This document shows, piece by piece, positions 18,619 to 49,916 of a stretch of 60,349 nt of DNA. The notes under the pieces were generated by a model. It searched no databases. It had not been told where the DNA came from and saw only the letters and a program-made list of their open reading frames with translations. Numbering within the stretch: the first letter of the stretch is position 1; every line of letters starts with the position of its first letter. Source of the DNA: a virus. Location: IMG/VR virus record IMGVR_UViG_3300028844_007041, positions 1-60,349 of that record. One strand, 5' to 3'. A program made the translations under genes and the position numbers.

Positions 18619-18623
18619 GTTAC

Positions 18624-22867: not shown

Positions 22868-23086
22868 CTATTCCTCAATATTTTGATTAGTAGAATTTGA
22901 AAGAATAAGTTCTTTGAGTTCAAGAATATCTTTTTTTAGAGAATTGATTTCCCTAGCTTGCGTTTCTAACTGCTCTTTTAATTGCTTTTTTTGACGAAGT
23001 GTGGTTCTATGACTATTTATATTTTCTCTATTCACTGCAACAATTGCTGAGGTTATTTTATCTCTTTTATAATTCTCAGTATACAT
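22868..23086 (-). CDS. small coiled-coil protein, 72 aa
   Basis: Chosen start is the ATG at 23086, which overlaps the end of the 2150-residue gene by 11 nt; an in-frame ATG at 23137 would give 89 residues but a longer overlap. No good SD marks either. The protein is a basic helix (TLRQKKQLKEQLETQAREIN) running into LKKDILELKELIL, a regular coiled coil. It probably oligomerises, perhaps as a connector or chaperone for the adjacent giant proteins. Not recognised further. Confidence 0.6.
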   Translation of the reverse strand: MYTENYKRDKITSAIVAVNRENINSHRTTLRQKKQLKEQLETQAREINSLKKDILELKELILSNSTNQNIEE

Positions 23087-26000
23087 CGGAGAGGTCCACA
23101 CTTGTAGCAAACATAAAAGATGAAGTGTTGACGGCATCTCTTAATTTGCATTCGTAAATTATATTACGAACATCATTCTTATCATATTCAAATTTCTTTA
23201 AATAATTACCTGTTTGTATTATATTTATACTTTCAAAGTTATCAGGATTACCAGTTTCAATTAAACTTATTGACGCAACTCCAACTCCAAGATCAGTTAT
23301 ATTAGCATTGACCCAAACAGTTTTTAAATCATTTCGATATTCAGTTTTTTCAATGCTTAAAATTGCATATGGTTTTTCAGGAGTTGGCTCGCTAACAAAT
23401 GATTGACATTGATTATAATGCTCATGTGTATTTTTATCACGCAACCAAACATACAATTTATGGTCACCTTTTGGTATGGATGTCACATCTAAATCAAATT
23501 CAAATGAATATTTACCCAATGTTGTCCGCACCAAGGTCGCTGGTGAATTCCAAATATTTGGTTTGTATGTGGTGTCGACTTGATAACCAAACTCAATATC
23601 ATTTGGTTTTGCATTTGTTTTAAAATCAACAGTAACCTTTTCTGTTCCTGTAATATATTTATTCAGTTTGATCTCAATAGGTTCAATTTTTAGGTCAACT
23701 AAACGAACTGACATTCGATAATTATTTGAAAGATTGCCATTTACATCACGCAACTGCAGGTAAAATATTTGAGAGCCTGCAATATCGTCTTCTGCAATTT
23801 TCAATGAGTGTGTGAGTGTGCTGTTGTTTGTACGATAAATCGATTTATAATTTGTTGGATTTTGAACTGTGCCAATTGCATAGGCTTCAATCATACTATT
23901 AGGATCTTTAATATCAAAAGTAATTGTTCCAACATAATATTTACCTTGTCTTTGTAATACAACAGTAGGTGTTACGTTTGAAATGATTGGTGATGTGCTA
24001 TCTGTTATATCAATATAGACATTTGCAGTTTCAATATTACCACAATCATCTGCAATGTGCAAGTAAACTGTATTAGCTCCAACGTGTGTACTAATTGCAA
24101 ATTCAGATAAACTAATATTTTCTGAATAGTAAATTGCTGATGCTGGAACAGCAAAAGAATTCCAAAATGCAGAATCTAGGTCAACGTTTGATTTTGTAGT
24201 TATGGCATATTGTGTAACAGTTACATCACTTTCAACATTACCACTAAATGTTTCAGTTGTAGATGTAGTTGTAGTATGAGTAAATGTTCCGTTCACCTTA
24301 AAATCAAGAATGCTTGTATTTGCGCCATCATGCAAAAGTTTTGATGTTGTTGCGCTCGACATGTTATTTGCATAATCATATACTTTTAATTCATAAGTAT
24401 GCAATTCAGTATTTGCAGATGAAATAATTGATGTAACTGAAAGTGTTTCATCAAGATTTTTATTGTCAACATTAACGGATGAAACTAATGAACCATTATC
24501 ATAGAGTTCATAGTTTCGAATACCTTCAGCATCTTGTGCTGTGAATTCAAGTGCTACATCATAATTCTTTGTATTACCATTAAATGCCGGACGAGTTTCC
24601 AATACATTCAATGTATTGATTTGTGGAGGTGTTGTATCAAGAATGAATTCATAAGGAACACGAACACGATTTTCAAATTGGTCTTCAGCATACAAATGTA
24701 TGTTGTGCTTACCATCAAGAAGACCTGTAAAGTCTGCATCAAAATTTCCTGATGCTAACTGAATACGACTTGAATATGCAAAATTAGAAACGTTTGCTTT
24801 TGGACCAGAATTTATTTGATAGGCTATGTTTACTAGTGCATGATCATCTGAAACAACATATGCAAAATTGTTTGCTGTTGCATTCAAATAATATTTTTCT
24901 AAATTTGTTGGATAAAAGACAGACGCAACTGGATTTTTATTATCAATGTATATGCTAACGTCACGTTTTGCCGAAATATTTCCAGCAGCATCTTTACCAG
25001 CAAAGTAAATAATTTTCTGACCTGCATCTTTAATTGGTAAATTAATAATTTTTCGAATCTTATGCGAGGTTGTTCCGATAATTGGACCACCAATAATTGG
25101 ATCAAAGTTGAGTTCATTTGGACTGAAAGACATATAATATTCATTCCAACCAGAAACATTATCCCATGCTTCACCAATTAATTCAATATCAAATGTATCA
25201 ATTGAACGGCTAATATTGTTTATATAAAAACTTGTAAGATTTGGAGCATCACGGTCAAATATAATAGTATTTGAATATTGTGTGATATTTTGACAAAAAT
25301 CTTTCGCATACATATGAACGTTGCAAACACCATCAGTAAATCCTAATGCATCAAGGTCTACAGTAAATGCAGTGTTTGCTTGTTTTCTTGGAGCATATGG
25401 TATCTGAAACCAACCAGCTGAATTCCAAACTTCAGTATTTGATTTTGAAAATAAAACTTCGGTCACACCTTCTAAGTCAGACATATCCATTTTAACAAAC
25501 ACATCTTTTGAAAATGTATATGTTGCGCCATCATTGATTGTACCTTGCCAGATAACAGGTGCTGTATTTTCAAGATAAACTTGAAATTTTTCATAAGGTG
25601 TCCAATTATCAAGACGGTCTCTCACTTTTACATTGATATCAACATTCCCCCAATGCTTAACTGGTAATTCAACTTTTCTTTGAAATGTCCCAACCTGAAG
25701 TTTTGGATAAACAGGAAAAGGCGTTACAGTTGAACTATTACCATAATGGTCATAGTATTCCATACCATCCCAAATTTCACAATAGTTATCATCATATCTT
25801 ACAGTATAGGGCACCACGAAATGATCAACTCCATGCACCATCTTTCTTTCAATGTGATCATCAAAATCAACTTTGATATCTGGAGGTATTGAATCAAATT
25901 CAAACGAAATTCCAGCAGTACCTATATTATTAAATTTATCCTTTGCATGAACATATAGAGTGTTAATTTGTCCTTGAATGAAACCCATTCTTGCCAAATC

Positions 26001-29000
26001 AGCATTTTCTGAAATTGCAATATTTTTCTTTTCACCTAAAACTTCTGTCCAAGAATGGTCAAAAACAATGTTTGCTTCCTTTGAATACTTGTAATGTGTA
26101 ATTGTAGAAAAATCTGATGCCTCAAATGAGAAAGGTACAATATTTTTGTTTACACCGACCATTCCACCACCAAAAACCATGCCATGATTTAATATAACAT
26201 TTGTAATTGCCGGACGGAAACGGTCAAGATACACATTAGGTATTGAAATCGGAACTGATGAATTCATTGCCATATCAACAACAGTCACTTCAATATCTGC
26301 ATGATTTGCTATATGAGTTTGATCAATGCGTAGATTAATTATCTCATCAACATTTCTCTTGAATGGAAAATCAAAACGATGTACTCTTGGAGTTGGATAT
26401 GAATTTACTTTAAATTCAACATGCCGCAAGCCACTATCAACATCATCAATTTGTGTTCGGAACTGTAGAATATAATCGTAATTATCTTCAAACGCACCTG
26501 TAAAGATTACGTTTGCTGTTGGTTTGATATTCTCAAATGGACGATACGCCACTACTTCTGAACTTTTAAATCCATAATCTGATATTGATTTTACTGCTAT
26601 TCTTGCATATCTCTCAGATAAAGGTAATGTATATTTAAATTGGCCAATTGCATTCACTTGATTAGGAATTTTAATTTCATATGTTTCAAGTGTTGTTGTA
26701 CCAACCGGATTAACTTTAACTTCAAGTTTATTAATTGTTGTATTTGCGGCTGCTGTTCCATTATAATTTACTGTTACTTCCGTACCAGTCATCTGATGAT
26801 ATACATTTGAAATTGAAATTGCTGGAGTGAATGGAGGTGTAGTTACAAGTTGTTTTACCTCAACGCCTGAAATTTCGTTTTCAAAGAAGTCTTTGATACG
26901 GTATGCAATGTTTGGAGTTGTATCAAATTTTGGAATTGTAAATGTTTGTGTTGCTTTGTAAGATTTGAGACCAACTGGAATATCTGACCAAGATGGTTCA
27001 CCATCTGGTGTATACCAAAATTTATATTGCGCAAGTTCTTGATTATCTTTCATATCTAAATCAAGTGTTAGATCATAACTTAATGGTGTTGAAGATACAC
27101 CATTTGCATAGATATTTGCTGTCGGATCTGTTGCGTCTACATTTAAATTAATTGAATATTCTTTTGTTTCATTGAAAAATCCATCACGATATTGTACAGT
27201 AAGTTTTCTTGGTCCTTCCGAAAGACCCAGTGGTATTAATTGATACTCATTAAATCTTTTCACTGGTGGATTCAACTTAGACCACCCACCTCCATTGAGC
27301 TTATATCCATCTACGTTTCGATTATCAATTGCATATAGCTCGACATTAGCATAGTAAGTTATGGGATCTTTTATAATGTTTCTCAACTGAATTCCACCAG
27401 AAACATTTACTGAATCTAAATCATACTCATACTTATAAACAGCACTCTCATTTTTATTCATATCCGCTACTCGCAAATAAAACTCATGAGTACCGTCATT
27501 TGTCAAAGGAAATTCAAATGGCATAGTTTCTGAAACAACTGGTGCGTTGTTCGGAATTTGCTTCCAATTTTTCATTGTTGAATCATTTGCCGTGATTGAA
27601 TACCAATAAACATTACCAGCGCCAGTATCGTGGGCATCAATTTTGAAATTTAAAACATAGTTTTCTCTTGTCATTGATGCACTATCAAATTTAAAATCAT
27701 CAACTTCTGGTAAAGAATCATCAATTACATAAGTAAATGTTTTAACGGCAGTTTCATTACCGAATACATCTTTCAATTGAAATCTTGCTTCTTGTGGAAT
27801 GCCAAGTTGTGTTGTAGGAATGTCAAGAGATAAGGTGCTATTAAATTTATTGGATACTTCAATTGGAATCCAATCTTTTGCCAAAATGTCATTCAGTCCT
27901 ACTTTATAATGACTAATTCCTTTGTTATCATAAGCATCTGTTTCAAAATAGATTCGATAGTAAGAAGTATTTTTATCTGCATCGAAATATGCAAACGTAT
28001 TAATTGTTGGTCCTGATTTGTCAAACAATACGTTTGCTGTTCTTATTGGACTTTCATTTCCAAAAATATCTTTTGCCTGAAAATAGAAAGTTAATTTATC
28101 TTCGTATTCTGATTGATCAATTATAATTGATTGTGCTTCATCAAGTAACTTTGTTTCTGTGATTGCAAACCAATTGTTTGTATGTCCTGCAACAAAGTTT
28201 CCAGTATTTGAATTGATACCATATAATTTAAGATGTGTGATACCTTTATTGTCCGCAGCAACTGTTTGAAACCGAGTTGAATAATTTCCGTCTGGACGTT
28301 TTGATCCAAAAAGAAAACGGAATTCTGCATCAGGACGTGTATTATCAATTTCTAAATCTAATTTATATAAAGGTGTGAGATTACCACATATATCTGAAAA
28401 TTGTCCAAAAATTGTCCTTCTGCCGATTTCACCAAGATCAAAATCAATGTCTTGCTTTAGACTTTTTTGTGGTGAAGCGACATAATTCCAATTTAAATTG
28501 TCTGAATCAATCTGAGAACCAACACCTAAAACACCACCCGCATCTGTTGCAGAAAATCGAACTGTTGCAATATAATTTGTTCCTACTTTTTTACCCTCAA
28601 CAATTTCAATTTGACCTACAGGATTTGTTTTGTCAACTGTGAAATCAAACTCATGAACAGTAATGTTATCAAATTCATCATATAGCGAAACTTCAATTTC
28701 AATATCTCCTTCAGGTTGTAAATGTGGAATATCAATAGTTATTGTTGTATTCCAATTTGGTCCAGGAACAATGAAAGAACCCGAAGTCAATAATCTTGAT
28801 GTACCTTTAATTTTTGATGTATATTTTTTTAGGTAGCCTTGTGGACGAATTGATCCACTGAGGTCATAAAATATTCGATATGTAGAACCTGTGTTAATTA
28901 CACGATTTATTTTATATGAAGTAACCTTAGCGCCTTGATTGCTCAAGTATAACCGTATAGGACTTGATGTGATTACATTACCAGAATAATCATTTACTTC

Positions 29001-29528
29001 AAGATAAAAATATGCAAACCGATTTGTAAATGTTTTAGGCACCTCAAGTCGATATCGTCCAGTGTGGCGAACTGCTGATTGATTTAAGAAGTATTGTTTT
29101 CGATGACCGAATGAATTATAGATAACGATATTTGAAATACCCGTATCATCTTCTACATCAACATCAAATTCTACATAATAGGAATCATCAGAAGTTAATA
29201 TATCAATTAACGAGAAATTATGAATGATTGGAGTGTTGCGGTCAAGGTAGATCGTTTCTGAAAAATATTCACTATTACCTGAAGTGTCTGTAAACAATAC
29301 ACCAAAGGTATGAAATCCTATATTTGTAGCAAATACGGCAACTTCAACATTACCTGTTGTTTGTGCTTGAGGTATTAATGGTGTTTCTCCTTGGCTAACA
29401 TCATCAAAAAATAATTCATACTTAGCTAAATTACCTGTACCAGTTGCCGCCGAGATATTAAAATATACTTTAAAATTACCGGTGATTTGCTCAACACGGT
29501 TAAGAGAAGTGTTTCCTGTAATTGCCAT
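23076..29528 (-). CDS. giant Ig-like repeat tail protein, 2150 aa
   Basis: Built from about 19-20 beta-sandwich units of roughly 105 residues. Unit starts are marked by a D-x-(T/S/N)-x-P turn: LDRNTPIIHNF, VDKTNPVGQIEI, FDKSGPTINTF, FDSIPPDIKVDF, FDRDAPNLTSFYI, LDTTPPQINTLNV and others. Within units, D-x-x-G-I-x-x-Y and x-Y-x-x-D-x-F-G-N motifs recur. The pattern resembles bacterial Ig-like/HYR-type repeats. No signal peptide, anchor or enzyme motif is present, so a very long flexible tail or fibre protein is likely. A TCTAAATA element lies about 40 nt upstream of the start. Confidence 0.7.
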   Translation of the reverse strand: MAITGNTSLNRVEQITGNFKVYFNISAATGTGNLAKYELFFDDVSQGETPLIPQAQTTGNVEVAVFATNIGFHTFGVLFTDTSGNSEYFSETIYLDRNTPIIHNFSLIDILTSDDSYYVEFDVDVEDDTGISNIVIYNSFGHRKQYFLNQSAVRHTGRYRLEVPKTFTNRFAYFYLEVNDYSGNVITSSPIRLYLSNQGAKVTSYKINRVINTGSTYRIFYDLSGSIRPQGYLKKYTSKIKGTSRLLTSGSFIVPGPNWNTTITIDIPHLQPEGDIEIEVSLYDEFDNITVHEFDFTVDKTNPVGQIEIVEGKKVGTNYIATVRFSATDAGGVLGVGSQIDSDNLNWNYVASPQKSLKQDIDFDLGEIGRRTIFGQFSDICGNLTPLYKLDLEIDNTRPDAEFRFLFGSKRPDGNYSTRFQTVAADNKGITHLKLYGINSNTGNFVAGHTNNWFAITETKLLDEAQSIIIDQSEYEDKLTFYFQAKDIFGNESPIRTANVLFDKSGPTINTFAYFDADKNTSYYRIYFETDAYDNKGISHYKVGLNDILAKDWIPIEVSNKFNSTLSLDIPTTQLGIPQEARFQLKDVFGNETAVKTFTYVIDDSLPEVDDFKFDSASMTRENYVLNFKIDAHDTGAGNVYWYSITANDSTMKNWKQIPNNAPVVSETMPFEFPLTNDGTHEFYLRVADMNKNESAVYKYEYDLDSVNVSGGIQLRNIIKDPITYYANVELYAIDNRNVDGYKLNGGGWSKLNPPVKRFNEYQLIPLGLSEGPRKLTVQYRDGFFNETKEYSINLNVDATDPTANIYANGVSSTPLSYDLTLDLDMKDNQELAQYKFWYTPDGEPSWSDIPVGLKSYKATQTFTIPKFDTTPNIAYRIKDFFENEISGVEVKQLVTTPPFTPAISISNVYHQMTGTEVTVNYNGTAAANTTINKLEVKVNPVGTTTLETYEIKIPNQVNAIGQFKYTLPLSERYARIAVKSISDYGFKSSEVVAYRPFENIKPTANVIFTGAFEDNYDYILQFRTQIDDVDSGLRHVEFKVNSYPTPRVHRFDFPFKRNVDEIINLRIDQTHIANHADIEVTVVDMAMNSSVPISIPNVYLDRFRPAITNVILNHGMVFGGGMVGVNKNIVPFSFEASDFSTITHYKYSKEANIVFDHSWTEVLGEKKNIAISENADLARMGFIQGQINTLYVHAKDKFNNIGTAGISFEFDSIPPDIKVDFDDHIERKMVHGVDHFVVPYTVRYDDNYCEIWDGMEYYDHYGNSSTVTPFPVYPKLQVGTFQRKVELPVKHWGNVDINVKVRDRLDNWTPYEKFQVYLENTAPVIWQGTINDGATYTFSKDVFVKMDMSDLEGVTEVLFSKSNTEVWNSAGWFQIPYAPRKQANTAFTVDLDALGFTDGVCNVHMYAKDFCQNITQYSNTIIFDRDAPNLTSFYINNISRSIDTFDIELIGEAWDNVSGWNEYYMSFSPNELNFDPIIGGPIIGTTSHKIRKIINLPIKDAGQKIIYFAGKDAAGNISAKRDVSIYIDNKNPVASVFYPTNLEKYYLNATANNFAYVVSDDHALVNIAYQINSGPKANVSNFAYSSRIQLASGNFDADFTGLLDGKHNIHLYAEDQFENRVRVPYEFILDTTPPQINTLNVLETRPAFNGNTKNYDVALEFTAQDAEGIRNYELYDNGSLVSSVNVDNKNLDETLSVTSIISSANTELHTYELKVYDYANNMSSATTSKLLHDGANTSILDFKVNGTFTHTTTTSTTETFSGNVESDVTVTQYAITTKSNVDLDSAFWNSFAVPASAIYYSENISLSEFAISTHVGANTVYLHIADDCGNIETANVYIDITDSTSPIISNVTPTVVLQRQGKYYVGTITFDIKDPNSMIEAYAIGTVQNPTNYKSIYRTNNSTLTHSLKIAEDDIAGSQIFYLQLRDVNGNLSNNYRMSVRLVDLKIEPIEIKLNKYITGTEKVTVDFKTNAKPNDIEFGYQVDTTYKPNIWNSPATLVRTTLGKYSFEFDLDVTSIPKGDHKLYVWLRDKNTHEHYNQCQSFVSEPTPEKPYAILSIEKTEYRNDLKTVWVNANITDLGVGVASISLIETGNPDNFESINIIQTGNYLKKFEYDKNDVRNIIYECKLRDAVNTSSFMFATSVDLSDVY

Positions 29529-29582: not shown

Positions 29583-32500
29583 TTAGAAAACTTGTATTTG
29601 AATCTGTTTTCGAGCAATCGGTAGTCCAATAGAATTCTTAATTGTAACCATTGTATCGATATAGTTTGCGCCAAGTGCATATAATTGGTCATGATTTATA
29701 GTAACTTTAAATACTGCCCACTCACCATTGTATAAATCATTATATGGAATAGGCACTGAAGAACTTGCATGAATTCCAGAATGTGCTTCAATACTTCCAA
29801 AAATTGATGGTGATGAAATATCTGGTTCAAGGTTAAATGTCAATTGATCTTTATAAGTGTCAAATACATCGTTTACTGCTGCCGCAATTGCGGCAGCATC
29901 GGATCCCGTACCTAATGTTGAAACGAGACTGCCGAGATGTTTAGTTTGTTGCATACAAGATGGAACATGATTTTTACTTGCAGCACCTGCGCCTGCATCA
30001 TAAAGAACTAATGCAATCTCATTTGCAATTAATTGATTGATATAAAAGTTTGGATTTGTTGGTTGTTGAACATATGCAGCACCAGACGAACCTCCTTGAT
30101 CTGGTGAATCTGGCTCATCAGAATATAACAGAATCATTTTAAGAGCAGTTGGTCTCCAAGCACCCAATGCACCATTTGCAACTTTTGATGTGATTTCAAA
30201 TTTAGGTTCGGCACCACCACTAGCACTATCTTTATACTTTTCAAGTGCTGTTTTAATCGAAGCACGATTTGCAGTCATTGATGGACCTGTAATTGCTGCT
30301 GTGATTGGTGGCATCGGAGATGTAAATTCAATACCGCTTCCTGGATTCCAATACCATCCTAAACCGAATCGAGCATTTACATTACCACCAGAATCTTCTG
30401 AAAATGCAGCAATGTTATCTAGTGTTTGTGATAATGAATCATAAACTTTGTTTGAGAATCCTGATACATAACTTCCGGAACGGTCAATCAAAAGACATGC
30501 GTCAACTGCAAGACAAATCTGATTAATACTAAATGATATGTAAAAATCAGTTGAACCTCCTGTTGTTGGGCTTCCTGTATTTGGATCTAGACCCGGCCAA
30601 TGAGGACTCTGTGGAGGCACATTGATCGGATCACGAGGAAATACTCTTGCTCCTGTACCACCACCTGATATCGGTCCTGTTTGTGGTATCACAGGACCAT
30701 CAGGAGGTATAGGTCCTGGTGGTGAAATTGGTGCTGGATAACCAATTGGTAATGGTGATAATGATGGTGGCCCTAAAGGTGGTTGCAATGGAGGTAATAT
30801 TGCTGTTGTTGGATATATTCTATACGTTGTCTGTACAGAATTTCCAAATGAATCATATACAACAATATAGTATACACCTTCTGTTGAAAATGTATAGTTT
30901 AAAATACCACCAGAAGGTATAGTACCTGAAACTTGCGGTGATAATACACCTGTTGGTAAATTAAGATGTGTAATAAACCATTTTGCTTCAATCTCCACAA
31001 CCTTTTGATTTACTGTTGGTATATAACCTGTACTATGGTCACCAGTATCAATATCAATTGTAAGTGCCAAATTACGATTGTCTCCTTCGTATGTAGGAGC
31101 ATCCCAAGCCGTTACTGTACTAACATGTGGTGTGATACGAAGATTAAAAAATCGTGGCGTATTGTTTAAAAAGTCTGAGAATTTCAGAGGATTTGAAGGT
31201 GCTGGTAAGTTATCATACAGCCGAGTATCTTGTGTTGCAACACGCATACCACGATACTCACTAAGTTTATGGACACGATTTGCTTGAACATCAGGTGTTC
31301 TTTTTGAAATATAACCATCATGCTGGACGCCATCACCAAACATTGATGCAATTGATTTTCTTTGTGCATGTTCTGAAGAATTGCCTTCAAATTTAAAAGG
31401 TGTTCCTGCTGATGTGCCAACCGGAGTAATTGCAAATCCAGGATCATCAAGTTTTAACATCAACATGTTTGTTGATGTATTGAAACAACTATCAACCGAA
31501 TGAATAAAGAATTGTTTATAACCATTCGGTGGCATTGCAGTAACTGTTGTACTAAAGTTTACTGTCTTCTGTCTTGGTGTTGGTTGTATCCATGCTAATG
31601 AATATGGTGAAGTTGTTGAATACTGTACGAAGGGTGGTGGTGTTTGTGAATTTGTAATAATATATCGAATGATATTTGTTTGATCATCTTTGAGTGTACC
31701 TTGAAGTGTGATACCACTTGCAGTTGTTACGTCTGATGGTTTTGACCATGCTGTATTTGAATTTGTTGCATCACCTGTACATCCTTCACCAAGTATAGAT
31801 AAATTGATTAACTTTGGTCCTTCTCGGTCATCAATCCAAGTAATCTGTGTCGAACGTTTAAACGTTTGAACACCTGAACCACCTTTATATTCATTACGAA
31901 ACCATTGAGAGTATCCAAATGTTGAAACATGGACATATACTGTTTTTAATTGTCCTGCAAATACGGGACCTGAACCCAAAAAATCATATTCAACTACACC
32001 ACTATAATAACTTGTACCTTCTGAAATTGCAGTCCAATCAGAGCCAGTAGCTACAAATTCACCTGTTGCCGGATCATAATCAGGCGCACCAGTTGGCGGT
32101 GTTGCACTTTCTGTCACTGCTACTCCAGTGATTAGATCACCTTGTGTGAATGGTCCTGCTTGACCTGGATATACATTAATAAGCCAACCATTTTTTCTTG
32201 ACCTTGTATATTGTCTTTTATATTGTTCTTCAAATACATCAATATTTGGTGGACCTAACGAAAGTGATGTGTAATCAATTGCAGGTATTGGACTATATTT
32301 GGCAACTACACAATTATTATCTGTTGCTGCCAGATAAACTAAAACATTTTCACAGTTTGTTTCTGCAACTATACATTGATAATTTTGACCGGAACTTGTT
32401 TGCTCACCAATTGATAAATCAAATGGTGTAGTCATGAGAGCAGGATTTGCACCAGCAGTTAATGGATAATGTGGATCACTTTTTGGATGTGGTGATGGTT

Positions 32501-33236
32501 TTGTATTGAAATCAGTTGTCGCATAAAAACCACAAAGTTTTGTTCCTGTTGCAGTTGCTTTCCATTCACCAACGGCTAAAAAAGGACTCACAGTTGAACG
32601 TGCTGACGTTAATAAATCCCAAGTAATTTTTGCTGAATTTATATTGATTGCTAAAAATTCATCAGCTTGATTACCTGCACGGTCAAAGACAGTTACTCTT
32701 ACTGTATGTGTACCAGTTGTACCTGAAGGTAATTGAAAGTTGACCTGCTCATATGCAAAGTCTGTAGGATATACCAATGGATCTGGATAGATATGTGTTA
32801 CAAGATGATCCGCATCCATCCATATTTCGTAACGATCAATTCCTGATCCTGCATCAGTTGCCTGAAATGTTACAGTACATGTTTCACTCATCCAACAAAT
32901 ATAGTTACCATTAAATGTGGTGTCCATTATTGATGGTGGAGTAGTGTCTGTAGTATAGGTTGCATTAGTTGCAATTTTACATTTTGATACAGCACCATTT
33001 GTATCCATCACATAAACATAAAGGTCTGGTCCTCCGCTAACTGCACTTATTGGTACATCAACATAAAATCCTTCTGCACCTGTATAAACATTTACTGGGT
33101 TTGGAGATACAGATGAAATTACTGCCGGCGCTCTTGCTGTATGTGGTGAGCCAGGAGATGGATTTGCCAAATCAGTTAGACGAATAGCTTTTTGCGCACT
33201 ACTTCGAAGATTGTTTATATCAGTATTAGTAGCCAT
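29583..33236 (-). CDS. modular VWA-domain tail adhesin, 1217 aa
   Basis: Domains in order: an Ig-like unit at about 90-205 (DTTPPSIMDTTFNGNYICWM, then TFQATDAGSGIDRYEIWMD); a long region with further Ig-like pieces; an extended proline-rich hinge at about 800-890 (LPPLQPPLGPPSLSPLPIG); and a von Willebrand A domain at about 905-1120. The VWA shows the MIDAS motif DRSGS in ACLLIDRSGSYVSG and an acidic fourth strand MILLYSDEPD. VWA domains bind ligands through a metal ion. The gene is 7 nt below another VWA gene. A surface-binding role is inferred. Confidence 0.75.
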   Translation of the reverse strand: MATNTDINNLRSSAQKAIRLTDLANPSPGSPHTARAPAVISSVSPNPVNVYTGAEGFYVDVPISAVSGGPDLYVYVMDTNGAVSKCKIATNATYTTDTTPPSIMDTTFNGNYICWMSETCTVTFQATDAGSGIDRYEIWMDADHLVTHIYPDPLVYPTDFAYEQVNFQLPSGTTGTHTVRVTVFDRAGNQADEFLAININSAKITWDLLTSARSTVSPFLAVGEWKATATGTKLCGFYATTDFNTKPSPHPKSDPHYPLTAGANPALMTTPFDLSIGEQTSSGQNYQCIVAETNCENVLVYLAATDNNCVVAKYSPIPAIDYTSLSLGPPNIDVFEEQYKRQYTRSRKNGWLINVYPGQAGPFTQGDLITGVAVTESATPPTGAPDYDPATGEFVATGSDWTAISEGTSYYSGVVEYDFLGSGPVFAGQLKTVYVHVSTFGYSQWFRNEYKGGSGVQTFKRSTQITWIDDREGPKLINLSILGEGCTGDATNSNTAWSKPSDVTTASGITLQGTLKDDQTNIIRYIITNSQTPPPFVQYSTTSPYSLAWIQPTPRQKTVNFSTTVTAMPPNGYKQFFIHSVDSCFNTSTNMLMLKLDDPGFAITPVGTSAGTPFKFEGNSSEHAQRKSIASMFGDGVQHDGYISKRTPDVQANRVHKLSEYRGMRVATQDTRLYDNLPAPSNPLKFSDFLNNTPRFFNLRITPHVSTVTAWDAPTYEGDNRNLALTIDIDTGDHSTGYIPTVNQKVVEIEAKWFITHLNLPTGVLSPQVSGTIPSGGILNYTFSTEGVYYIVVYDSFGNSVQTTYRIYPTTAILPPLQPPLGPPSLSPLPIGYPAPISPPGPIPPDGPVIPQTGPISGGGTGARVFPRDPINVPPQSPHWPGLDPNTGSPTTGGSTDFYISFSINQICLAVDACLLIDRSGSYVSGFSNKVYDSLSQTLDNIAAFSEDSGGNVNARFGLGWYWNPGSGIEFTSPMPPITAAITGPSMTANRASIKTALEKYKDSASGGAEPKFEITSKVANGALGAWRPTALKMILLYSDEPDSPDQGGSSGAAYVQQPTNPNFYINQLIANEIALVLYDAGAGAASKNHVPSCMQQTKHLGSLVSTLGTGSDAAAIAAAVNDVFDTYKDQLTFNLEPDISSPSIFGSIEAHSGIHASSSVPIPYNDLYNGEWAVFKVTINHDQLYALGANYIDTMVTIKNSIGLPIARKQIQIQVF

Positions 33237-33243
33237 TTATGTG

Positions 33244-34839
33244 CTAAATTGAAAGTAAGAAATCGTGTGTGCCATGATACATATCAACAATCTCACCTGT
33301 ATAGTCACCACCTGATAATTGTCCGGTCATTGGGCGACCTCTTTCAGAATTATTTTGCGAAACATAGCAATGTAATATTGCAGTATCTTTGTTTAACATT
33401 GCAGTCAATGAACGAAACGCACCGACCTGTTCATCTTCACTTGATGCTTTGTTAAAAAAAGAACCGATCTTTGATAAGTCTGGATCATTTGGTATACTTT
33501 TCATACCTGCTTCAGCAGCACCACCAGTTGCAAACATAAACATTGCTACAGATGGTTTTGCTGCAGCAATAACACCTGCTGCCGTGCCGGTATCACCCCA
33601 GCTTGCACCGTCACTTTGAGATATACACCATTGAATTGATTTTCCTGAACCTTTTGCGTCAGTAGCACCAGTTGTAGTTCTTTCATAAATCGGTGTACCA
33701 CCACCTGCAGGCGCCGGAATTGCTTTCGCCCTTGTTGTTGCACTAACTACTTCATCAATAATAGTACCTGTATGATAATAAGTAATATTAAGAAAGGTAC
33801 CATCTGGAAGTTCACTCAGAAATTTTTGTGTTGCGGTTTGTAGCCACCAACGATAGGTCCCACTCATTGATCCACTATCATCCATTACCATGTAAATTGC
33901 TACATCAGTTGGATTTGGTTTAACATAATATGATATAGCAAAGGGAATCAAACCTCTTTGCATATTACCTGTACCAGAACCTGAAATATGACTACCCTTG
34001 AAGATTGACATCAGTTTTTGCATTGTGCTGTTTGCACCGGTAATTGTATTTGCTGGATTATTTGTTCCATCAAAATTCATGTATGTAGGATTCCATTTCA
34101 AATTCACATCAGTGGGAGTACCATTGAAATATATTCCTGCACCAGTAGATCCTGGTGGACACAATCGTATATTGACTACAGATGGCGGAATAAAAGAATC
34201 ACTAACGTTTAAAGGATTTTCCCAAAGTTCCGAAGCAGGATTTGTAACTGATGTTCCAGGAATAAACTGTGGTCCAGCAGGCGCATTGACCACACGAAAA
34301 CTAAAGGCAGCAGAATGATCTGTATCAACTGCATTTGTTTTTGGAGTTGGAAATGCTGTAGGCCACTCTCCTAATGAATTTGCAATTAACGTATACCAAC
34401 CAGCAGTTGGAAAGGTATGGTTAAATGTTGCTGCCAGAGTAGGTCCTGTTTCAAGACCTGTAATAATTCCAGGTTGTGTATTTTCTCCTTGCAAACAAAG
34501 CCATTGTGAAGTTGCTACAGGCCGTCCATCATCATTCAAATTAAAGTTAATTGTTGTACCTGCTTCAATCATTAATGGATCGAGTGCATCATTTGTAATT
34601 GCATAGTTACCGTCAGGAATTAAATCTGGATCTGAAGAAATCCACAATTGTTCAATACCATGTGTATCTGCTATATTAAGATTTAATCGCAAACGATAAT
34701 TTGAACCATTATTATACAGTGTATCACCTGATGTAAATTGACCTTCTTCAAATACATTTACATAACCATTCGGCACTACAGCATCTTGTGTTGTTGTTAA
34801 ATGTAAATGCTTTCTGCCGTCTCGAGCAAGATTCGCCAT
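33244..34839 (-). CDS. VWA/MIDAS-domain tail protein, 531 aa
   Basis: The N-terminal 300 residues are beta-rich with Ig-like character (PTAGWYTLIANSLGEWP). A von Willebrand A domain follows at about 310-480: VAIYMVMDDSGSMSG supplies the MIDAS D-x-S-x-S, and GGGTPIYERTT supplies the expected threonine loop. The usual T-D-G is altered to FATGG in VAMFMFATGGAAEAG. The last 50 residues (MTGQLSGGDYTGEIVDMYHG) form a separate C-terminus. The ATG immediately follows the TAA of the 2018-residue fibre gene, so the two are probably co-translated. Confidence 0.75.
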   Translation of the reverse strand: MANLARDGRKHLHLTTTQDAVVPNGYVNVFEEGQFTSGDTLYNNGSNYRLRLNLNIADTHGIEQLWISSDPDLIPDGNYAITNDALDPLMIEAGTTINFNLNDDGRPVATSQWLCLQGENTQPGIITGLETGPTLAATFNHTFPTAGWYTLIANSLGEWPTAFPTPKTNAVDTDHSAAFSFRVVNAPAGPQFIPGTSVTNPASELWENPLNVSDSFIPPSVVNIRLCPPGSTGAGIYFNGTPTDVNLKWNPTYMNFDGTNNPANTITGANSTMQKLMSIFKGSHISGSGTGNMQRGLIPFAISYYVKPNPTDVAIYMVMDDSGSMSGTYRWWLQTATQKFLSELPDGTFLNITYYHTGTIIDEVVSATTRAKAIPAPAGGGTPIYERTTTGATDAKGSGKSIQWCISQSDGASWGDTGTAAGVIAAAKPSVAMFMFATGGAAEAGMKSIPNDPDLSKIGSFFNKASSEDEQVGAFRSLTAMLNKDTAILHCYVSQNNSERGRPMTGQLSGGDYTGEIVDMYHGTHDFLLSI

Positions 34840-37800
34840 TTATAGTAATCCAATATGTCTTTTTATTGTTCTCAATTCTTCTTCAAGAAGATCTTGTCTT
34901 ATGTCTTGTTTTTTAATTACTTCAATAAGTAAGGGTATTACCTTTTCATAATTTACTTGATAATGTCCATCTGCATTTTTACGAACTGCCTCAGGTACAA
35001 CTGATTCAAGTTCTTGTGCAATTACACCTACATCATCACCCGTATATCCATGAGGATTATCTTCCTTCCATGTGAAGTGAACACCTCGTAGTCTTTTAAT
35101 CTTATCTTGCGGACGAATATTGTTGATATTCGTTTTAAATCTACCATCAGAAGTTACAAAGCTGATAATATCACCATCAGCAATCACATCACCTTTTGCA
35201 CGAATTGTTCCTGTATCTAAATCAATTGCTGCTTTCGCTGAAGATCCTCCAGCAAATACAATTTGATTTTGGATGTTTTCGGGATTTGTTGATTCACCAT
35301 AACTTTGTAATGAATATGATGGTGAATTAGTTTTGTTCCAATAAATTCCTTCATCTGCTGTTCTTGCTTTTAGCAACCATTTATTTTCATCATTACGATA
35401 CTCGAATAAGTTATCAATGTGACTTTGCTTAACTGTCTTATTTACTAAAATTTCATTAGTATTGATAAGCATATTTTGATCATTATTAAATGAAAAATCA
35501 ATTTGGTCGGCATTGATGAACAACTTACTATTTGGTAATGAATCATTAACACCCCAAGTGTTTGTTCCACTTGTTAATGCACCATAATAAATGTAAGCAT
35601 CTTTTGAATGAGTGTCAACACCATGCCAAACAATATACTTTGTGTTTGGTGTTGGTGGTGTATTTGATGGATTAGGATATTCCCAGTTATCTGATAACTC
35701 ACTATCAGTCAAATGGAATGTTAAGTCACTCTTGATTCCGGGAGGGAAATACATTGGTGTGTAGACTGTTGTATTACCACGAAACTCTGTATTTGAACCT
35801 TCTTTGAATATGATTGTACCTTCTTCAACTGTATGTGAACCTGGACCATAAACTGTTGTACCTTCAATGACAGTATTTGAACCCGGAGCATAGACTGTAT
35901 CACCTTGAACATTTGTAACTGATGTTGTTGTGTAGGTCGTATCACCACCTACAGTAGTTGTTGAGTTTGTTGTATAAGTTGTATCACCATCAACAGTAGT
36001 TGTTGAATCTGTCGTATAAACTGTATCGCCACCAATAGTAGTTGTTGAGTTTGTTGTATAAGTTGTATCACCATCAACAGTAGTTGTTGAAGTCGGTCCA
36101 TAAACAGTATCACCTTCAACATTAGTTGTTGATGTTGTACTGTATGTTGTATCGCCATTTATCTCAGTTGTTGAGTTTGTACTGTATGTTGTCGAACCTT
36201 CAATTGTTGTGTTTGACCCAGGACTATAAACAGTTTCACCATGTATCTCAGTTGTTGAGTTTGTACTATAAGTTGTTGTACCATCAACAGTAGTATTTGA
36301 ACCGGGACCGTATGTTGTCTCACCATGTATCTCAGTTGTTGAATTTGAACTATAGGTTGTCGTACCTTCAACAGTGGTGTTTGAACCTGGTCCATATGTT
36401 GTCTCACCATGAATCTCAGTTGATGAACTAGCACTATAGGTTGTTGTGCCATGTAAGGTTGTATTTGAACCGGGACCGTATGTTGTCTCACCATCAATCA
36501 ATGTGTTTGAAGTCGGTGAGAACCAAACTTCATCATGCATTGAAAGCGGACCATGAAAGTTTGTATTTGATGTTGGTGAGAATACTACTTCAGAATTAAA
36601 TGTTGTATAAGGTCCATTGAATGTTGCGTTTGCAGCAAAGAAAGTATCAACCCAAATGTCAATATGATCTCTCCATGCAGTGTATAGATAATTATCTGAA
36701 GGATCAATATGCTTCAATGTGTATGATACACCATTGAACCCAAGAGATGTGTTACTCGTTGTTGAATCATTTGTGTGCCGCAGAACATTTGTACCTGCAG
36801 TCATTGTTGTCGAAACTACACTTTGATCGAGAAACAAGTCATATACAAAATTGTTTGAATTGTTAAACACATAATTTGTCGAAGGTGTACCAGCATTGTC
36901 AGCCATTGTTAGATGAGCAGACTGATTTTCTCTTCGTATTAATTGCTCAACTCTTTCATTTGCATTATCAAGAACTAACTCATATTCCTCAACATCAACT
37001 GATATTCTTGATTCAGATTTACGATTTGGTATACTTGCATAAAATGTTTTTGAGAAATAATCAGCACCATTTGCAACTGAGATTCGATCAGATACTGTAG
37101 TTTCTGCATCAATTAATACTGCATATCGATTATTAAAATCTTTATTTGATAATGAGATTGTTGATACATCATCTTTTTGAATATCCATTATGTAACGATT
37201 ATATTGATCACCAACTGACATATCAATATTACCTCGAGTCACTCCTTCATCAAGGTTCAGCTGGTAAATATAATTGTTTGCTTGATCAATCTTGTATGTT
37301 GTTTTAGTTGTAGCACCTGCAGGATGAAAGTTAAGTTCTTCCATTCGGTTGTCAACACTAAATGCTTTATATCCTGATTCAATTGAACGATTTAATTCCT
37401 TTTTAATATAATAATTATTTGAACCGTCAATTAAAAATCGTGTATACATTGAAGCATCAAACAGCAACGTTTCTGCTACTTGATTGCCACTATACATCTT
37501 TGAATAAGAAGTTTGATTTGCTCGGTCAAGATGCATATCATATGCATATTCAGTTGGTGTGGCTGTATCTTCCTGTAACTCATATCGACTGCTTGCGGCA
37601 GATTCATTGAGTGTAAGCACACTGTTTTGCTTTTGAGTTGTGAGTTGATTGTATGTTGTTCCCGCAGCAATGTCAAGTTTTGTTTCGTCTTTATATCCAG
37701 ACAACGAATCAATTTTAAATAACGCAAATTGATTTACATCATCCATTGCTAGAATTGAATCTTGACCAGGTGATGTTAATTGCAATAATGATTGTTGAGA

Positions 37801-40800
37801 AGGATTATCAATGTTGATTTGGAAATACTCAATATCGTTTTGAAGTTTTAGTCGGCTTGTATTTCCTGTTTTGTTTGAATCAACAGTGTAGAAATAATTA
37901 TTTGCTCGAGTTTCAAGTAATGCACGTCCTGCACTAATTGAAAGATTAGTCCAATTTGTTGGTGTGAATTCAATTCGATCAACAATGTTTGTAGTTGATA
38001 TTGTCCGCTTTGATTCTTGTCCTGTTGCCAACGAAAATTGATCTTCAGCAATTGTATCTCTCAAAATAAATTCAGCAGATGAATCAGATTGATTGATCAT
38101 TTTTTGCCAGACAGTATTTGCAGTCCGGTCAATATGCTGATGTACTTTTGAATCAATAACTTGCTGAGTTAAATCAAATGTTTGTTCTTTAATGTCAAGA
38201 TTTGAAAAAGTATCAACATGATTTTGCAGATAAATGCCAACACGATGATTGATATTATCCATGTTCAAACGATAAATCTTATCTGGTCTTGCAATTTCAA
38301 ATCCAGAAATACCATTCAAGTTGTCATTGACGAATGACATTGTGTTACCATCACTATCAAGAACAAGTGAGGTGACCATTCCTGTTGGACTATGGTCTGC
38401 TTTTGTTTCAACTTTATAATCTTTTGAGCGCAACCTTGAAATTGCTGGGTTCATTGCAAGCAATTCAAAAGATGACCAACCAGGAACATTCTCACCAATT
38501 AGGTGGACATCATTTGTGTTTGATGTGACTGAGAAATATTGTTGTGATGATTCAGTCTCTTGCAGAATTCTTGACTGGTCTTTTTGAATGTGAAGTTCTG
38601 CTGTCGGTGCTGTATTTGAAACTGCAATTTTATCATGTGCATAAAGTTGATGTACGCCAACTTTTGCTGTAGGATGTCCTGTATTAACACCACCAGCTTT
38701 TCTTGAAAAGCGGAAAGAACCATATTCATGATCGTCATTGCCATTTGGAAAATAAGAAAGTTCACCACGGCTTGATGTTGTACCATGCCATTGTATCACA
38801 GAACTATAATCATTTGGTCCATAAATGATTGTTGATCTTTCACCGGTCTGAATTGTTGTTTGCTCTCCTAGATATAGGTGAACACCATTTGTTCGTGTAT
38901 TCAGAATCATTGCTGGATTGTTGTCATCAGCACTCAAGTACCAAAATGCTTTGTCCGATGCTCCATTCAAGCGTAGTAAGGTTTCTCCATGATATTCGTC
39001 TAGACCATGCTCTGGAATATTTAAAGCGGTATTAAACGATTTTCCAATATCAAATATATCACCATTGTTCACTGTACCGAGAGACCATCTTCTTTGATGT
39101 GCATCATCATTCAGGAATAGAATTGTTCCATGACGATACATCGAATCAGTTGTTGACAATTGAATCAATGGACTTTCTTCTTCAACAACAAGACCACTTC
39201 GTCCACTTGATACTAAAGTTGTGATTGTTCCCATCCGAATGAATGGTTCAATACCATCAAGTATTAAATCACTATCACCGTGAATATTACCAGAAACATC
39301 AAGTTCTTCTGCCGGATTAATTACATTAATACCTACACGATTTGGACGAACATATAAAGTATTTTCTGTAATAAGGTCTTGATCAATAATGACTTCACCT
39401 TTAACGAACAAATCTGTATTCATGGTGATGTCTGACGATAATATTTTAACTTCTGGTGCTGAATTTAAACCACCTACAGATAAATTTAATCCACTTGTTA
39501 AACTTTGCGTTGTAACCTCAAGTGTTCCGAGAGCAGTGTTTGCATCATAAACTAATTGTAAACCAGAACTTGAAATGTCATCATTCAAATCTTTTAACTG
39601 AATGGCCGAAGGTTTTGTGTAGTTATCAGAAGTGATTGAGAGAACTGGCTCATTTTGATATAATTGAAATTGTGTAGTTGGTGCAGTTGTGCCAAGACCA
39701 ACTTTGCCCATATCAGTGATAAAAATACTTTCTTTACCTTGATTGACAAGTGCTGTTTCATGACGGTTTGTCCAGAATGTTGTACCCATGAACAAGCCGG
39801 TTGTATTTTGTGTAGTTAAATCACTGAATGATTCAACTACATTTGTATATGTCCAAGGTGTTGATATCCAACCACGTGTATTTGCAATGATGTCAAGATT
39901 TGATTGTACATATCCGGGTACACCAGAGTGTCTTGCATAATTATCATCAAGGGTCAAAGAACGGAATGTTACGTTTGATGTTTTAGTGAGACTTTGATCA
40001 ACACTAAAATCATCTTCAAGACGAAGTGTAACATCTTGATATGGAATGTCGAGAGTTAATGTATGTGCTGAAGGCGCTTTAAATTGTAAATATTTGTCAT
40101 CAACATCATGTACACGGAAAAAGCCTGCTTCAACATCAGTACCTTTTTGTATAAAGATACCAGAATTTAATGGTGTATATAAATCATTTTTATTGATTAG
40201 AATATTCTTATCTTCAACAACAAGTTCACTCACTTCTAATTGTGTTCGAACACCAAGAACTGAGAGATTACCACGAACAATTAAATCTTCTTCAATATCA
40301 ACACTACCTTCAATGATTACATCTCCCGTTGCCTCAATTGCACCATTGAAAAATGTAGCACCTGTGACATCAAGTCCATCATTTGCAAAAACTTGATTGT
40401 TGAATATTGCTTGACCATTTGCAACAAGTTGGCTTCCTGGTCCAAATGACACTATACTTCCAAACGAAACTAAGTCAGTAAAGTTTGAAGGTCCTGTAGA
40501 ATCAATACCACCAACTGATATAGCACCACCAATTGTTACAGTATCACCAAATAAAACAGGGCCACCAAATGATACGTCAATGTTTGGTCCAAGTTTAAAT
40601 TCAGTATTAGTTAAAACAAAATCTGATTGAACTGTTGCAGGATCTGCATATGGGTTTGAAGTTCCCAATACCATCTCATTCATATAAATTTTGTTAACAC
40701 CTATACTACCGGCTTCATTTCGATATACTAATGTTCTTGGTGTTGACAAGGCAGAAGCTGAATTTACTTCTTTGCGAATCTCATTGTAATTAACTAACCA

Positions 40801-40896
40801 AGTTTGATAATGGTCATTTAATTCAACTTTTCTCCTTTGAGGAGGTTGCCATCCAGCACCTGGATGGTTTTGAGGTTTTACATTTAAAACTGCCAA
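34840..40896 (-). CDS. giant tail fibre with 14-residue solenoid and S74 tail, 2018 aa
   Basis: N-terminus AVLNVKPQNHPGAGWQPPQR leads into beta repeats and, near 205-250, the DLIVRGNLSVLGVRTQLEVS / ELVVEDKNILINK module shared with the 1412-residue fibre. A central region (about 400-1400) has irregular beta repeats. Residues about 1425-1712 are roughly twenty 14-residue units such as TYGPGSNTTVEGTT and VYTTDSTTTVDGDT, likely a beta solenoid. The C-terminal 110 residues are a canonical S74 chaperone: TSDGRFKTNI supplies the S-D-x-R-x-K autocleavage motif, followed by VGVIAQELESVVPEAV and VNYEKVIPLLIEVI. A long-fibre subunit is the best interpretation. Confidence 0.8.
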   Translation of the reverse strand: MAVLNVKPQNHPGAGWQPPQRRKVELNDHYQTWLVNYNEIRKEVNSASALSTPRTLVYRNEAGSIGVNKIYMNEMVLGTSNPYADPATVQSDFVLTNTEFKLGPNIDVSFGGPVLFGDTVTIGGAISVGGIDSTGPSNFTDLVSFGSIVSFGPGSQLVANGQAIFNNQVFANDGLDVTGATFFNGAIEATGDVIIEGSVDIEEDLIVRGNLSVLGVRTQLEVSELVVEDKNILINKNDLYTPLNSGIFIQKGTDVEAGFFRVHDVDDKYLQFKAPSAHTLTLDIPYQDVTLRLEDDFSVDQSLTKTSNVTFRSLTLDDNYARHSGVPGYVQSNLDIIANTRGWISTPWTYTNVVESFSDLTTQNTTGLFMGTTFWTNRHETALVNQGKESIFITDMGKVGLGTTAPTTQFQLYQNEPVLSITSDNYTKPSAIQLKDLNDDISSSGLQLVYDANTALGTLEVTTQSLTSGLNLSVGGLNSAPEVKILSSDITMNTDLFVKGEVIIDQDLITENTLYVRPNRVGINVINPAEELDVSGNIHGDSDLILDGIEPFIRMGTITTLVSSGRSGLVVEEESPLIQLSTTDSMYRHGTILFLNDDAHQRRWSLGTVNNGDIFDIGKSFNTALNIPEHGLDEYHGETLLRLNGASDKAFWYLSADDNNPAMILNTRTNGVHLYLGEQTTIQTGERSTIIYGPNDYSSVIQWHGTTSSRGELSYFPNGNDDHEYGSFRFSRKAGGVNTGHPTAKVGVHQLYAHDKIAVSNTAPTAELHIQKDQSRILQETESSQQYFSVTSNTNDVHLIGENVPGWSSFELLAMNPAISRLRSKDYKVETKADHSPTGMVTSLVLDSDGNTMSFVNDNLNGISGFEIARPDKIYRLNMDNINHRVGIYLQNHVDTFSNLDIKEQTFDLTQQVIDSKVHQHIDRTANTVWQKMINQSDSSAEFILRDTIAEDQFSLATGQESKRTISTTNIVDRIEFTPTNWTNLSISAGRALLETRANNYFYTVDSNKTGNTSRLKLQNDIEYFQINIDNPSQQSLLQLTSPGQDSILAMDDVNQFALFKIDSLSGYKDETKLDIAAGTTYNQLTTQKQNSVLTLNESAASSRYELQEDTATPTEYAYDMHLDRANQTSYSKMYSGNQVAETLLFDASMYTRFLIDGSNNYYIKKELNRSIESGYKAFSVDNRMEELNFHPAGATTKTTYKIDQANNYIYQLNLDEGVTRGNIDMSVGDQYNRYIMDIQKDDVSTISLSNKDFNNRYAVLIDAETTVSDRISVANGADYFSKTFYASIPNRKSESRISVDVEEYELVLDNANERVEQLIRRENQSAHLTMADNAGTPSTNYVFNNSNNFVYDLFLDQSVVSTTMTAGTNVLRHTNDSTTSNTSLGFNGVSYTLKHIDPSDNYLYTAWRDHIDIWVDTFFAANATFNGPYTTFNSEVVFSPTSNTNFHGPLSMHDEVWFSPTSNTLIDGETTYGPGSNTTLHGTTTYSASSSTEIHGETTYGPGSNTTVEGTTTYSSNSTTEIHGETTYGPGSNTTVDGTTTYSTNSTTEIHGETVYSPGSNTTIEGSTTYSTNSTTEINGDTTYSTTSTTNVEGDTVYGPTSTTTVDGDTTYTTNSTTTIGGDTVYTTDSTTTVDGDTTYTTNSTTTVGGDTTYTTTSVTNVQGDTVYAPGSNTVIEGTTVYGPGSHTVEEGTIIFKEGSNTEFRGNTTVYTPMYFPPGIKSDLTFHLTDSELSDNWEYPNPSNTPPTPNTKYIVWHGVDTHSKDAYIYYGALTSGTNTWGVNDSLPNSKLFINADQIDFSFNNDQNMLINTNEILVNKTVKQSHIDNLFEYRNDENKWLLKARTADEGIYWNKTNSPSYSLQSYGESTNPENIQNQIVFAGGSSAKAAIDLDTGTIRAKGDVIADGDIISFVTSDGRFKTNINNIRPQDKIKRLRGVHFTWKEDNPHGYTGDDVGVIAQELESVVPEAVRKNADGHYQVNYEKVIPLLIEVIKKQDIRQDLLEEELRTIKRHIGLL
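35760..36620 (-). repeat. 42-nt tandem repeats, about 20 copies
   Basis: In-frame repeats of 42 nt encode the 14-residue consensus T-Y-G-P-G-S-N-T-T-V-E-G-T-T in the 2018-residue fibre. Units alternate between GPGSNTTVEGTT and SNSTTEIHGET types, and later units drift to TTNSTTTVGGDT. A two-unit (84-nt) higher-order period is visible in the middle. Copy number could change by slippage or recombination without breaking the frame. Confidence 0.85.
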
Positions 40897-48845: not shown

Positions 48846-48869
48846 TTCTTGTATATAGTAGTATTTTAT

Positions 48870-48875
48870 AAGGAG
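48870..48875 (+). promoter_or_regulatory. ribosome binding site fixing the ligase start
   Basis: AAGGAG lies 6 nt before the ATG at 48882. It selects this ATG over the in-frame TTG at 48849, which would lie upstream of the predicted transcription start. Confidence 0.85.
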
Positions 48876-48881
48876 AACTTT

Positions 48882-49916
48882 ATGCCGTTCAATGATTTAG
48901 AACAATACATCGCAGACAGATGGATTAATGAAGGAATACATCCTGATAATCCAGAACTTAAAATATACAATTATACACAAAACACACAATTCAAAGATCA
49001 TTGGGATGAAGTAACTGAAAGTTGCCGAGGTCTTATTGTCGAAAATGGTCAAATTATTGCAAGAGGTCCAAGAAAATTTTACAATCTGGGACAAACAAAA
49101 TATACAACTTCTGATATTGTTTCTGTATTTGAAAAGGTTGATGGTTCACTTGCCATACCATATCTACAAAATGGCATTGTATATTTCGCAACAAGAGGTT
49201 CATTTACTTCAGAGCAAGCAAAGGTAGCAACAAATATTCTACATGAATATGATGAGTTTTTTCAAAACGCAATTATTGAAATACTTGAAGAAAACCTCAC
49301 ACCAGTTTTTGAAATCATCTATCCAGAAAATAAAATTGTTGTTAATTATGGTAACCGAAGAGAATTAATTTATATCGGTACAGTTGACAACAAAAATGGA
49401 CTCATTGATTTTTATTCACATCGTCAATTTTTTTCAGATTTTGTTTATCTTATTAAAGAATACAAAAATGATCAATTAACAATACCTGAAAATTCAGAAG
49501 GTTTTGTTGTGCAAATGAAGAACAATGTTTGTGCAAAAATCAAATCAGATTGGTACCTGAAAATTCATAAGCTAGTGACAAATAAAGATTTGTATCGTAC
49601 AACATTGATATCAATGATTGAAGAAGATATGGAATGGATTTCTGAAGTGCCTGATGAATTCTTCAATGAAATTCAAGTCTATCAAAAAAACGTTGAAGCA
49701 GAGGTAAATGTAATTACTGAAAAGATTATTTTATCTCTACAAGAGATCAAAACGTGTTTATTTGAAGATAAGGAAATTGCAATTGAAATTCAAAAGAATG
49801 AAAAGGAAACAAGAGATTTGATGTTTATTTTCTGGAGAAAAGGTCACAAGGACCTTCGCAAACATGTTTTAAGAAACATGTTGAATCATTATCGTGAAGA
49901 GCAGAAGGTTGCTTAG
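48882..49916 (+). CDS. rnlA: T4 Rnl1-type RNA ligase
   Basis: ATP-dependent RNA ligase of the T4 RNA ligase 1 family (344 residues; T4 Rnl1 has 374). Nucleotidyltransferase motifs are in order: CRGLIVENG (about 48), motif I EKVDGSLAIPY with nucleophile Lys85, motif III-like YFATRGSF, motif IV EGFVVQM, and motif V CAKIKSDWYLKIHK. T4 Rnl1 reseals tRNA cut by host anticodon nuclease during defence and also aids tail-fibre attachment, which is notable beside a tail gene block. The start at 48882 follows AAGGAG and a sigma70 promoter. The stop overlaps the convergent neighbour's stop (49913-49916), leaving no room for a terminator. Confidence 0.9.
   Translation: MPFNDLEQYIADRWINEGIHPDNPELKIYNYTQNTQFKDHWDEVTESCRGLIVENGQIIARGPRKFYNLGQTKYTTSDIVSVFEKVDGSLAIPYLQNGIVYFATRGSFTSEQAKVATNILHEYDEFFQNAIIEILEENLTPVFEIIYPENKIVVNYGNRRELIYIGTVDNKNGLIDFYSHRQFFSDFVYLIKEYKNDQLTIPENSEGFVVQMKNNVCAKIKSDWYLKIHKLVTNKDLYRTTLISMIEEDMEWISEVPDEFFNEIQVYQKNVEAEVNVITEKIILSLQEIKTCLFEDKEIAIEIQKNEKETRDLMFIFWRKGHKDLRKHVLRNMLNHYREEQKVA

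Follow-up and report, generated by a model that had tools for sequence, protein, structure and literature searches.

Von Willebrand A (VWA) domains are already known from contractile-tail baseplate and fibre genes, in one phage and in the fibres of contractile injection systems (eCIS). The gp164 protein of Bacillus phage 0305phi8-36 has a VWA domain and, in the passages that deal with it, is treated among the virion protein genes of a baseplate/fibre block (PMC2147016). Like the two proteins described here, A and B, it places a VWA domain in a contractile-tail baseplate/fibre gene, and the same passages put it next to Fn3 arrays, where domains are substituted. Phage 0305phi8-36 belongs to another lineage, the comparison is one of descriptions, and these passages mention no integrin beta-like flanking domain of the kind predicted for A. 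Contractile injection system fibres are also associated with VWA domains, and those eCIS tail fibres that have VWA, PKD and Ig domains resemble A in combining VWA and Ig-fold domains within phage-tail-derived fibre genes (PMC12923769). These are toxin delivery particles and not phages, and here too the likeness is drawn from descriptions. Because of these precedents, the view in the initial annotation of this DNA that VWA domains are uncommon in phage virions holds only in part.

Other VWA proteins are more distant in setting. The CobT/AAA-partner proteins of phages and archaeal viruses are viral VWA proteins with a MIDAS, as A and B are predicted to be (PMC7911831, PMC8651126), but their genes belong to modules for replication or metabolism, next to AAA ATPases, whereas A and B are encoded among tail genes. 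The pilus-tip adhesins SpaC, PitA and PilB of lactobacilli and streptococci resemble A in having a VWA domain among beta-rich domains, although they are Gram-positive pilus proteins and no sequence similarity to A was found. A cyanobacterial (Trichodesmium) protein is described, in the passage cited, as similar to an integrin beta subunit over more than 450 of its residues (PMC3192720), which suggests that integrin-beta-like arrangements are not confined to animals.

Two genes within a tail-fibre block

The window, the whole stretch of 60,349 bases that was analysed, is an IMG/VR record fragment of an uncultured T4-like myovirus with tail-fibre genes. It encodes T4-type head proteins (portal gp20, protease gp21, scaffold gp22 and major capsid gp23), and the capsid protein shares about 50% identity with its counterparts in marine cyanophages and Methylophilales phages. 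The head genes are followed by a series of long genes, all on the minus strand, that have tail-fibre matches. A and B are consecutive members of this series, on the same strand as the fibre genes beside them and within the structural gene block. The start of B directly adjoins the end of an S74 fibre gene, and seven bases separate the end of B from the start of A. One flank of the pair holds an S74 fibre gene and a relative (2135 residues) of cyanophage structural proteins (phrog_358), and the other holds another S74 fibre gene. Three related contigs keep the order of these neighbours around one variable slot: G008 (IMGVR_UViG_3300020469_000020), G010 (IMGVR_UViG_3300025892_000012) and G014. 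The genes immediately around the pair are as follows.

18624..22862, minus strand: second S74 fibre-like protein (Peptidase_S74 E=1.9e-11; baseplate/fibre PHROGs)
23076..29528, minus strand: downstream protein of 2150 residues with an Ig-like appearance, 38% identical to its counterparts in G008 and G010; no Pfam match
29583..33236, minus strand: protein A, 1217 residues, with an N-terminal region, a Pro-rich hinge and a predicted C-terminal integrin-beta-like VWA domain and beta tail; orthologues in G008 and G010
33244..34839, minus strand: protein B, 531 residues, with an N-terminal region (weak PKD match over 88-151, E=0.014) and a putative C-terminal VWA-type domain
34840..40896, minus strand: upstream fibre-like protein of 2018 residues with an S74 intramolecular chaperone (Peptidase_S74 E=7e-14; phrog_5668 tail fibre)

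The initial annotation had reported two adjacent reading frames with MIDAS motifs, and both frames and motifs are present. It had also placed them beside Ig-like repeats, a Pro-rich hinge and S74 fibres; the hinge and the fibres are confirmed, and the Ig-like regions correspond to weak matches only.

Several other features of the window concern its head and tail genes. An intein that carries an HNH endonuclease (Intein_splicing E=5.6e-10 over 65-483; HNH_3 E=4.3e-05) interrupts the gp20 portal protein (58159-60348, minus strand; Portal_T4 E=6.5e-74), and the junctions of the intein look like RNG/C...GIFVMN/SAT. A tandem array of three paralogous genes (1017-1946, 1956-3239 and 3249-4529, minus strand) matches the C-terminal part of the tail-fibre family phrog_4492 in all three members. 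A relative of the RNA ligase/tail-fibre attachment catalyst (48849-49916; phrog_562, E=1.5e-61) lies on the opposite, plus strand and adjoins a head-tail adaptor-like gene. The gene psbA, sought as a clue to the host in five contigs, was found in none of them.

Protein A and the integrin beta headpiece

The hinge of A and the features that bear on a VWA assignment are as follows.

30561..30794, minus strand: Pro-rich hinge, residues ~815-892, longer than in two relatives
29844..30515, minus strand: predicted VWA (I-like) domain, residues ~908-1131 (strand/helix alternation in the AF2 model; Foldseek and VIA matches; match of an orthologue to PF13519)
30465..30485, minus strand: MIDAS motif DRSGSYV, residues 918-924, invariant in three phages
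30201..30218, minus strand: second metal-loop candidate GGAEPK, residues 1007-1012, in which GG and EPK do not vary among the three phages
30108..30125, minus strand: YSDEPD, residues 1038-1043, in which D1040 is the expected fifth MIDAS residue; invariant in three phages
29586..29843, minus strand: predicted beta-rich C-terminal tail, residues 1132-1217 (model strands 237-319; the VIA alignment spans model residues 1-321)

Ahead of this region, residues 95-199 have sub-threshold Pfam matches to the Ig-like families DUF7743 and Big_13, and the richest 60 residues of the protein contain 21 prolines (8 and 11 in the two relatives). The MIDAS motif lies within LLIDRSGSYVSG (residues 915-926) and supplies D918, S920 and S922. 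In the second loop, E1010 is the likely counterpart of a residue for which most VWA domains have Thr and integrin beta has Glu, an assignment inferred from what is known of these families. With D1040, these residues would make a complete MIDAS, and all five are invariant in the three phages. Just 1 of 20,000 shuffled copies of A gives DxSGS followed by a later hydrophobic-[ST]D strand, a pattern that, like the one used for B below, was composed after the proteins had been seen.

Scans of A against Pfam, NCBIfam and PHROGs gave no VWA match above the cut-off, and hmmscan matches an orthologue to VWA_2 (PF13519) with E=0.002 and 19.2 bits against a cut-off of 27. Searches of the contigs with the PF13519 and PF00362 families were empty, which is weak evidence because the same search missed the orthologue with E=0.002. 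A is called a VWA protein here by fold and motif only, and the profile cut-off is a criterion of detection.

The C-terminal domain of A is 48% and 46% identical to its orthologues in G008 and G010, where the gene order around A is also kept. The remainder of the protein is mostly 14-40% identical, the exceptions being residues 601-700 and the short aligned part of 801-900. The VWA domain is conserved to the same degree as core tail proteins and above most of A. Invariant positions cluster where its three metal loops are predicted (30/37 against 58/207; p=1.4e-9 by Fisher's test, an optimistic value because the loop limits were drawn after the alignment had been seen). No A-like VWA domain was found in G014, although the neighbouring fibre and Ig-like genes are kept there. 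A tblastn search of 50,697 phage records with A gave no match, and scans of viral and genome collections with A, B and a profile of the three phage sequences (A1) returned only the G008 and G010 contigs.

Structure prediction, proposed as a check in the initial annotation, gave a model for A whose strands and helices are ordered as in a VWA domain, with a beta-rich tail after it (AlphaFold, AF2, from three sequences; pLDDT 45 and pTM 0.39, a low confidence). Residues ~896-1217 make up these two elements in the model. A Foldseek search of the PDB with it returned 19 matches at E<=0.001, 18 of them integrin beta chains aligned over ~380 columns; the other is 9ya0, a Toxoplasma conoid assembly. 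The best E value against integrin beta is 1.5e-6, and the Foldseek superpositions have rmsd values of ~10-14 A. VIA-align gives Z 12.5 with integrin beta3 over 256 residues (model 1-321, covering the I-like and hybrid domains), 11.6 with the pilus adhesin PitA, 11.0 with PilB and 10-11 with many other VWA structures over model residues ~12-233; SpaC appears in Foldseek at E=1.2e-3. Z gaps below 1 are ties, so integrin beta and PitA are not firmly ranked by Z. Integrin beta is favoured because its match covers the strands that flank the VWA domain, where the hybrid domain lies. The model of B, which is also poor, has no Foldseek match below E 0.6, and a bad model alone therefore does not yield integrin matches. 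Among viral structures (BFVD), a single match falls below E 0.001, to a giant-virus VWFA protein, and the next is a VWFA protein of a phage with a crAss-like name (2.5e-3).

A therefore appears, at the level of the fold and on a low-confidence model, to resemble the integrin beta head, in which an I-like domain is inserted in a hybrid domain. In integrin beta and in the model of A, beta strands lie on either side of the VWA domain; the MIDAS of both has the form DxSxS, and the best fold matches of the model span both domains. The C-terminal tail of A would sit where the second half of the hybrid domain lies. A and integrin beta3 also agree in the order of three elements, a loop rich in GG, W-R and a hydrophobic strand with Asp at its end. 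Unlike integrin beta, A has no PSI or EGF repeats, transmembrane segment or alpha partner among its Pfam results, and the two are ~10% identical. Sequence comparison of A with integrin beta and PDB chains gave no significant match, PF00362 does not match A, and the A1 profile scores human integrin beta3 (PDB 1tye_B) no better than some shuffled copies, although the register is plausible. The resemblance is thus one of fold and arrangement, and it reflects either homology of a very distant kind or the convergent placing of a VWA domain in a beta-sandwich. The description "integrin-like" used in the initial annotation is apt for A in this sense. To our knowledge of the open-access literature, an integrin-beta-like two-domain arrangement with a conserved MIDAS has been undescribed in phages.

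Protein B and its variable slot

The assignment of B rests mainly on its motifs, which are arranged as follows.

33310..33912, minus strand: putative VWA domain, residues ~310-510 (motif test; two best PDB sequence matches in register)
33865..33882, minus strand: MIDAS motif DDSGSM, residues 320-325
33691..33705, minus strand: GGGTP loop, residues 379-383, with T382
33520..33534, minus strand: FATGG, residues 436-440, the expected site of the fifth MIDAS Asp, which is absent

The segment MVMDDSGSMSG begins at residue 317 and supplies D320, S322 and S324. With T382 these leave the MIDAS of B incomplete, and the difference from A at the fourth acidic position of the initial annotation (YSDEPD in A, FATGG in B) is confirmed. 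Many VWA domains lack a full MIDAS, and such incompleteness bears on metal binding more than on fold. The initial annotation took this difference as a sign that A and B may bind different ligands; the missing acidic residue could equally mean that B binds metal weakly or not at all.

Whether B has a VWA fold is less clear than for A, and the VWA identity proposed for both proteins in the initial annotation stands at the fold level for A and by motif for B. Scans of B against Pfam, PHROGs and NCBIfam gave no VWA match above the cut-off, its single-sequence model (pLDDT 35) is uninformative, and its PDB sequence matches fall short of significance; all of this would fit a reading in which the motifs are coincidental and B is not a VWA protein. 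Against such a coincidence, none of 100,000 shuffled copies gives [hydrophobic]-DxSGS and GGxTP at the observed spacing. The two best PDB matches (E 0.12 and 0.29) moreover align the MIDAS and GGT loops in register, and the second is a chain of a calcium-activated chloride channel (CLCA), a VWA protein. We consider it doubtful that the motifs of B arose by chance. A MIDAS-like DDSSS in the distant contig L078 (residue 147 of the frame at 18438-19568) was set aside, as no GGT loop was seen with it and it has no relation to B.

No relatives of B were detected: tblastn against the 50,697 phage records gave chance-level matches, the relatives reached through the S74 neighbour have no B homologue, and A and B have no detectable homology to each other. 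The slot of B is occupied in G010 by an Ig-like protein, in G008 by two glycosyltransferase-like genes, an Ig-like protein and a protein of 826 residues, and in G014 by other genes. The glycosyltransferase-like genes of G008 are paralogues (L042:3781-4740 and L042:4741-5946, minus strand; RXYLT1_C E about 2e-4, below the cut-off). The slot behaves as a cassette region, like the orf162-164 region of 0305phi8-36 as the passages on that phage describe it (PMC2147016). In G010 the N-terminus of A is fused (L043:13008-18170; 1720 residues) with a portion of the protein found upstream of A in G008, which shows gene fusion within the A/B cassette region.

A predicted cation-dependent tail module

The gene context, the VWA-type fold of A and the conservation of its metal-loop residues are supported in this analysis. 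The location among fibre genes, the Ig-like proteins nearby and the conserved MIDAS together point to a metal-dependent binding module of the tail, and adhesion to the host by such modules is plausible. We infer the virion location, metal binding, ligand and adsorption role of A and B along the following lines. Both may be accessory proteins of the distal tail (baseplate or fibres) of a T4-like myovirus. A would present its MIDAS-containing VWA domain, set in a beta-sandwich like the integrin beta head, behind an Ig-like stalk and the Pro-rich hinge. If a divalent cation is bound at D918, S920 and S922, together with E1010 and D1040, then the loaded site would bind an acidic residue that a partner supplies, the likeliest place of this partner being the surface of the host cell, and attachment would be cation-dependent. 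B may be a second VWA module, particular to this lineage, whose MIDAS is incomplete. For distal-tail accessory proteins of which A adheres to the host through a metal-dependent VWA domain, we judge the chances to be about even.

Against this reading stand the low confidence of the A model and the rmsd of its superpositions, the lack of a significant sequence match of A to integrin beta or any PDB chain, the result for G014, in which no A-like VWA domain was found, and the conservation of the VWA domain of A, which is unlike that of a typical variable receptor tip. The higher conservation of this domain relative to most of A suits a variable receptor tip no better than it suits a conserved ligand or a partner inside the virion. 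The MIDAS of A might then clamp another protein of the fibres or baseplate by an acidic residue at assembly and hold the Ig-rich fibres with no host contact. Conservation on a par with core tail proteins (46-48% identity, where most of the remaining protein has 14-40%) and the synteny of the neighbouring genes with the domain agree with such a role, and VWA domains are widely used protein-protein interaction modules (Whittaker and Hynes 2002, cited in PMC2147016). G014, however, keeps the fibre and Ig-like neighbours without an A-like VWA domain, so that an internal partner would be dispensable or replaced there. High conservation leans towards a conserved partner and the absence from G014 towards an exchangeable adhesin; a purely internal function is possible, on the less probable side.

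It is rather unlikely that A and B are true VWA folds that do not work with metal and serve, degenerate or purely structural, as decorations exchanged between fibre genes. The missing fifth Asp of B, its lack of detected relatives and the filling of its slot by unrelated genes in three relatives would fit such decoration, but the MIDAS residues of A are invariant despite divergence to ~47% identity. Equally improbable in our estimate is a stronger form of the integrin comparison, in which A is a genuine integrin-beta-type head and the binding of an acidic ligand swings the hybrid domain and the Pro-rich hinge, signalling receptor contact to the contractile tail.

If A is a cation-dependent binding module of the tail, as we propose, then an integrin-beta-like module of this kind would be in use across a family of uncultured T4-like phages, which would suggest a receptor-binding chemistry that is rarely weighed in phage fibre annotation. 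It would also provide an example from a prokaryotic virus of a VWA domain placed in a hybrid domain, and this would bear on the origin of the integrin beta head.
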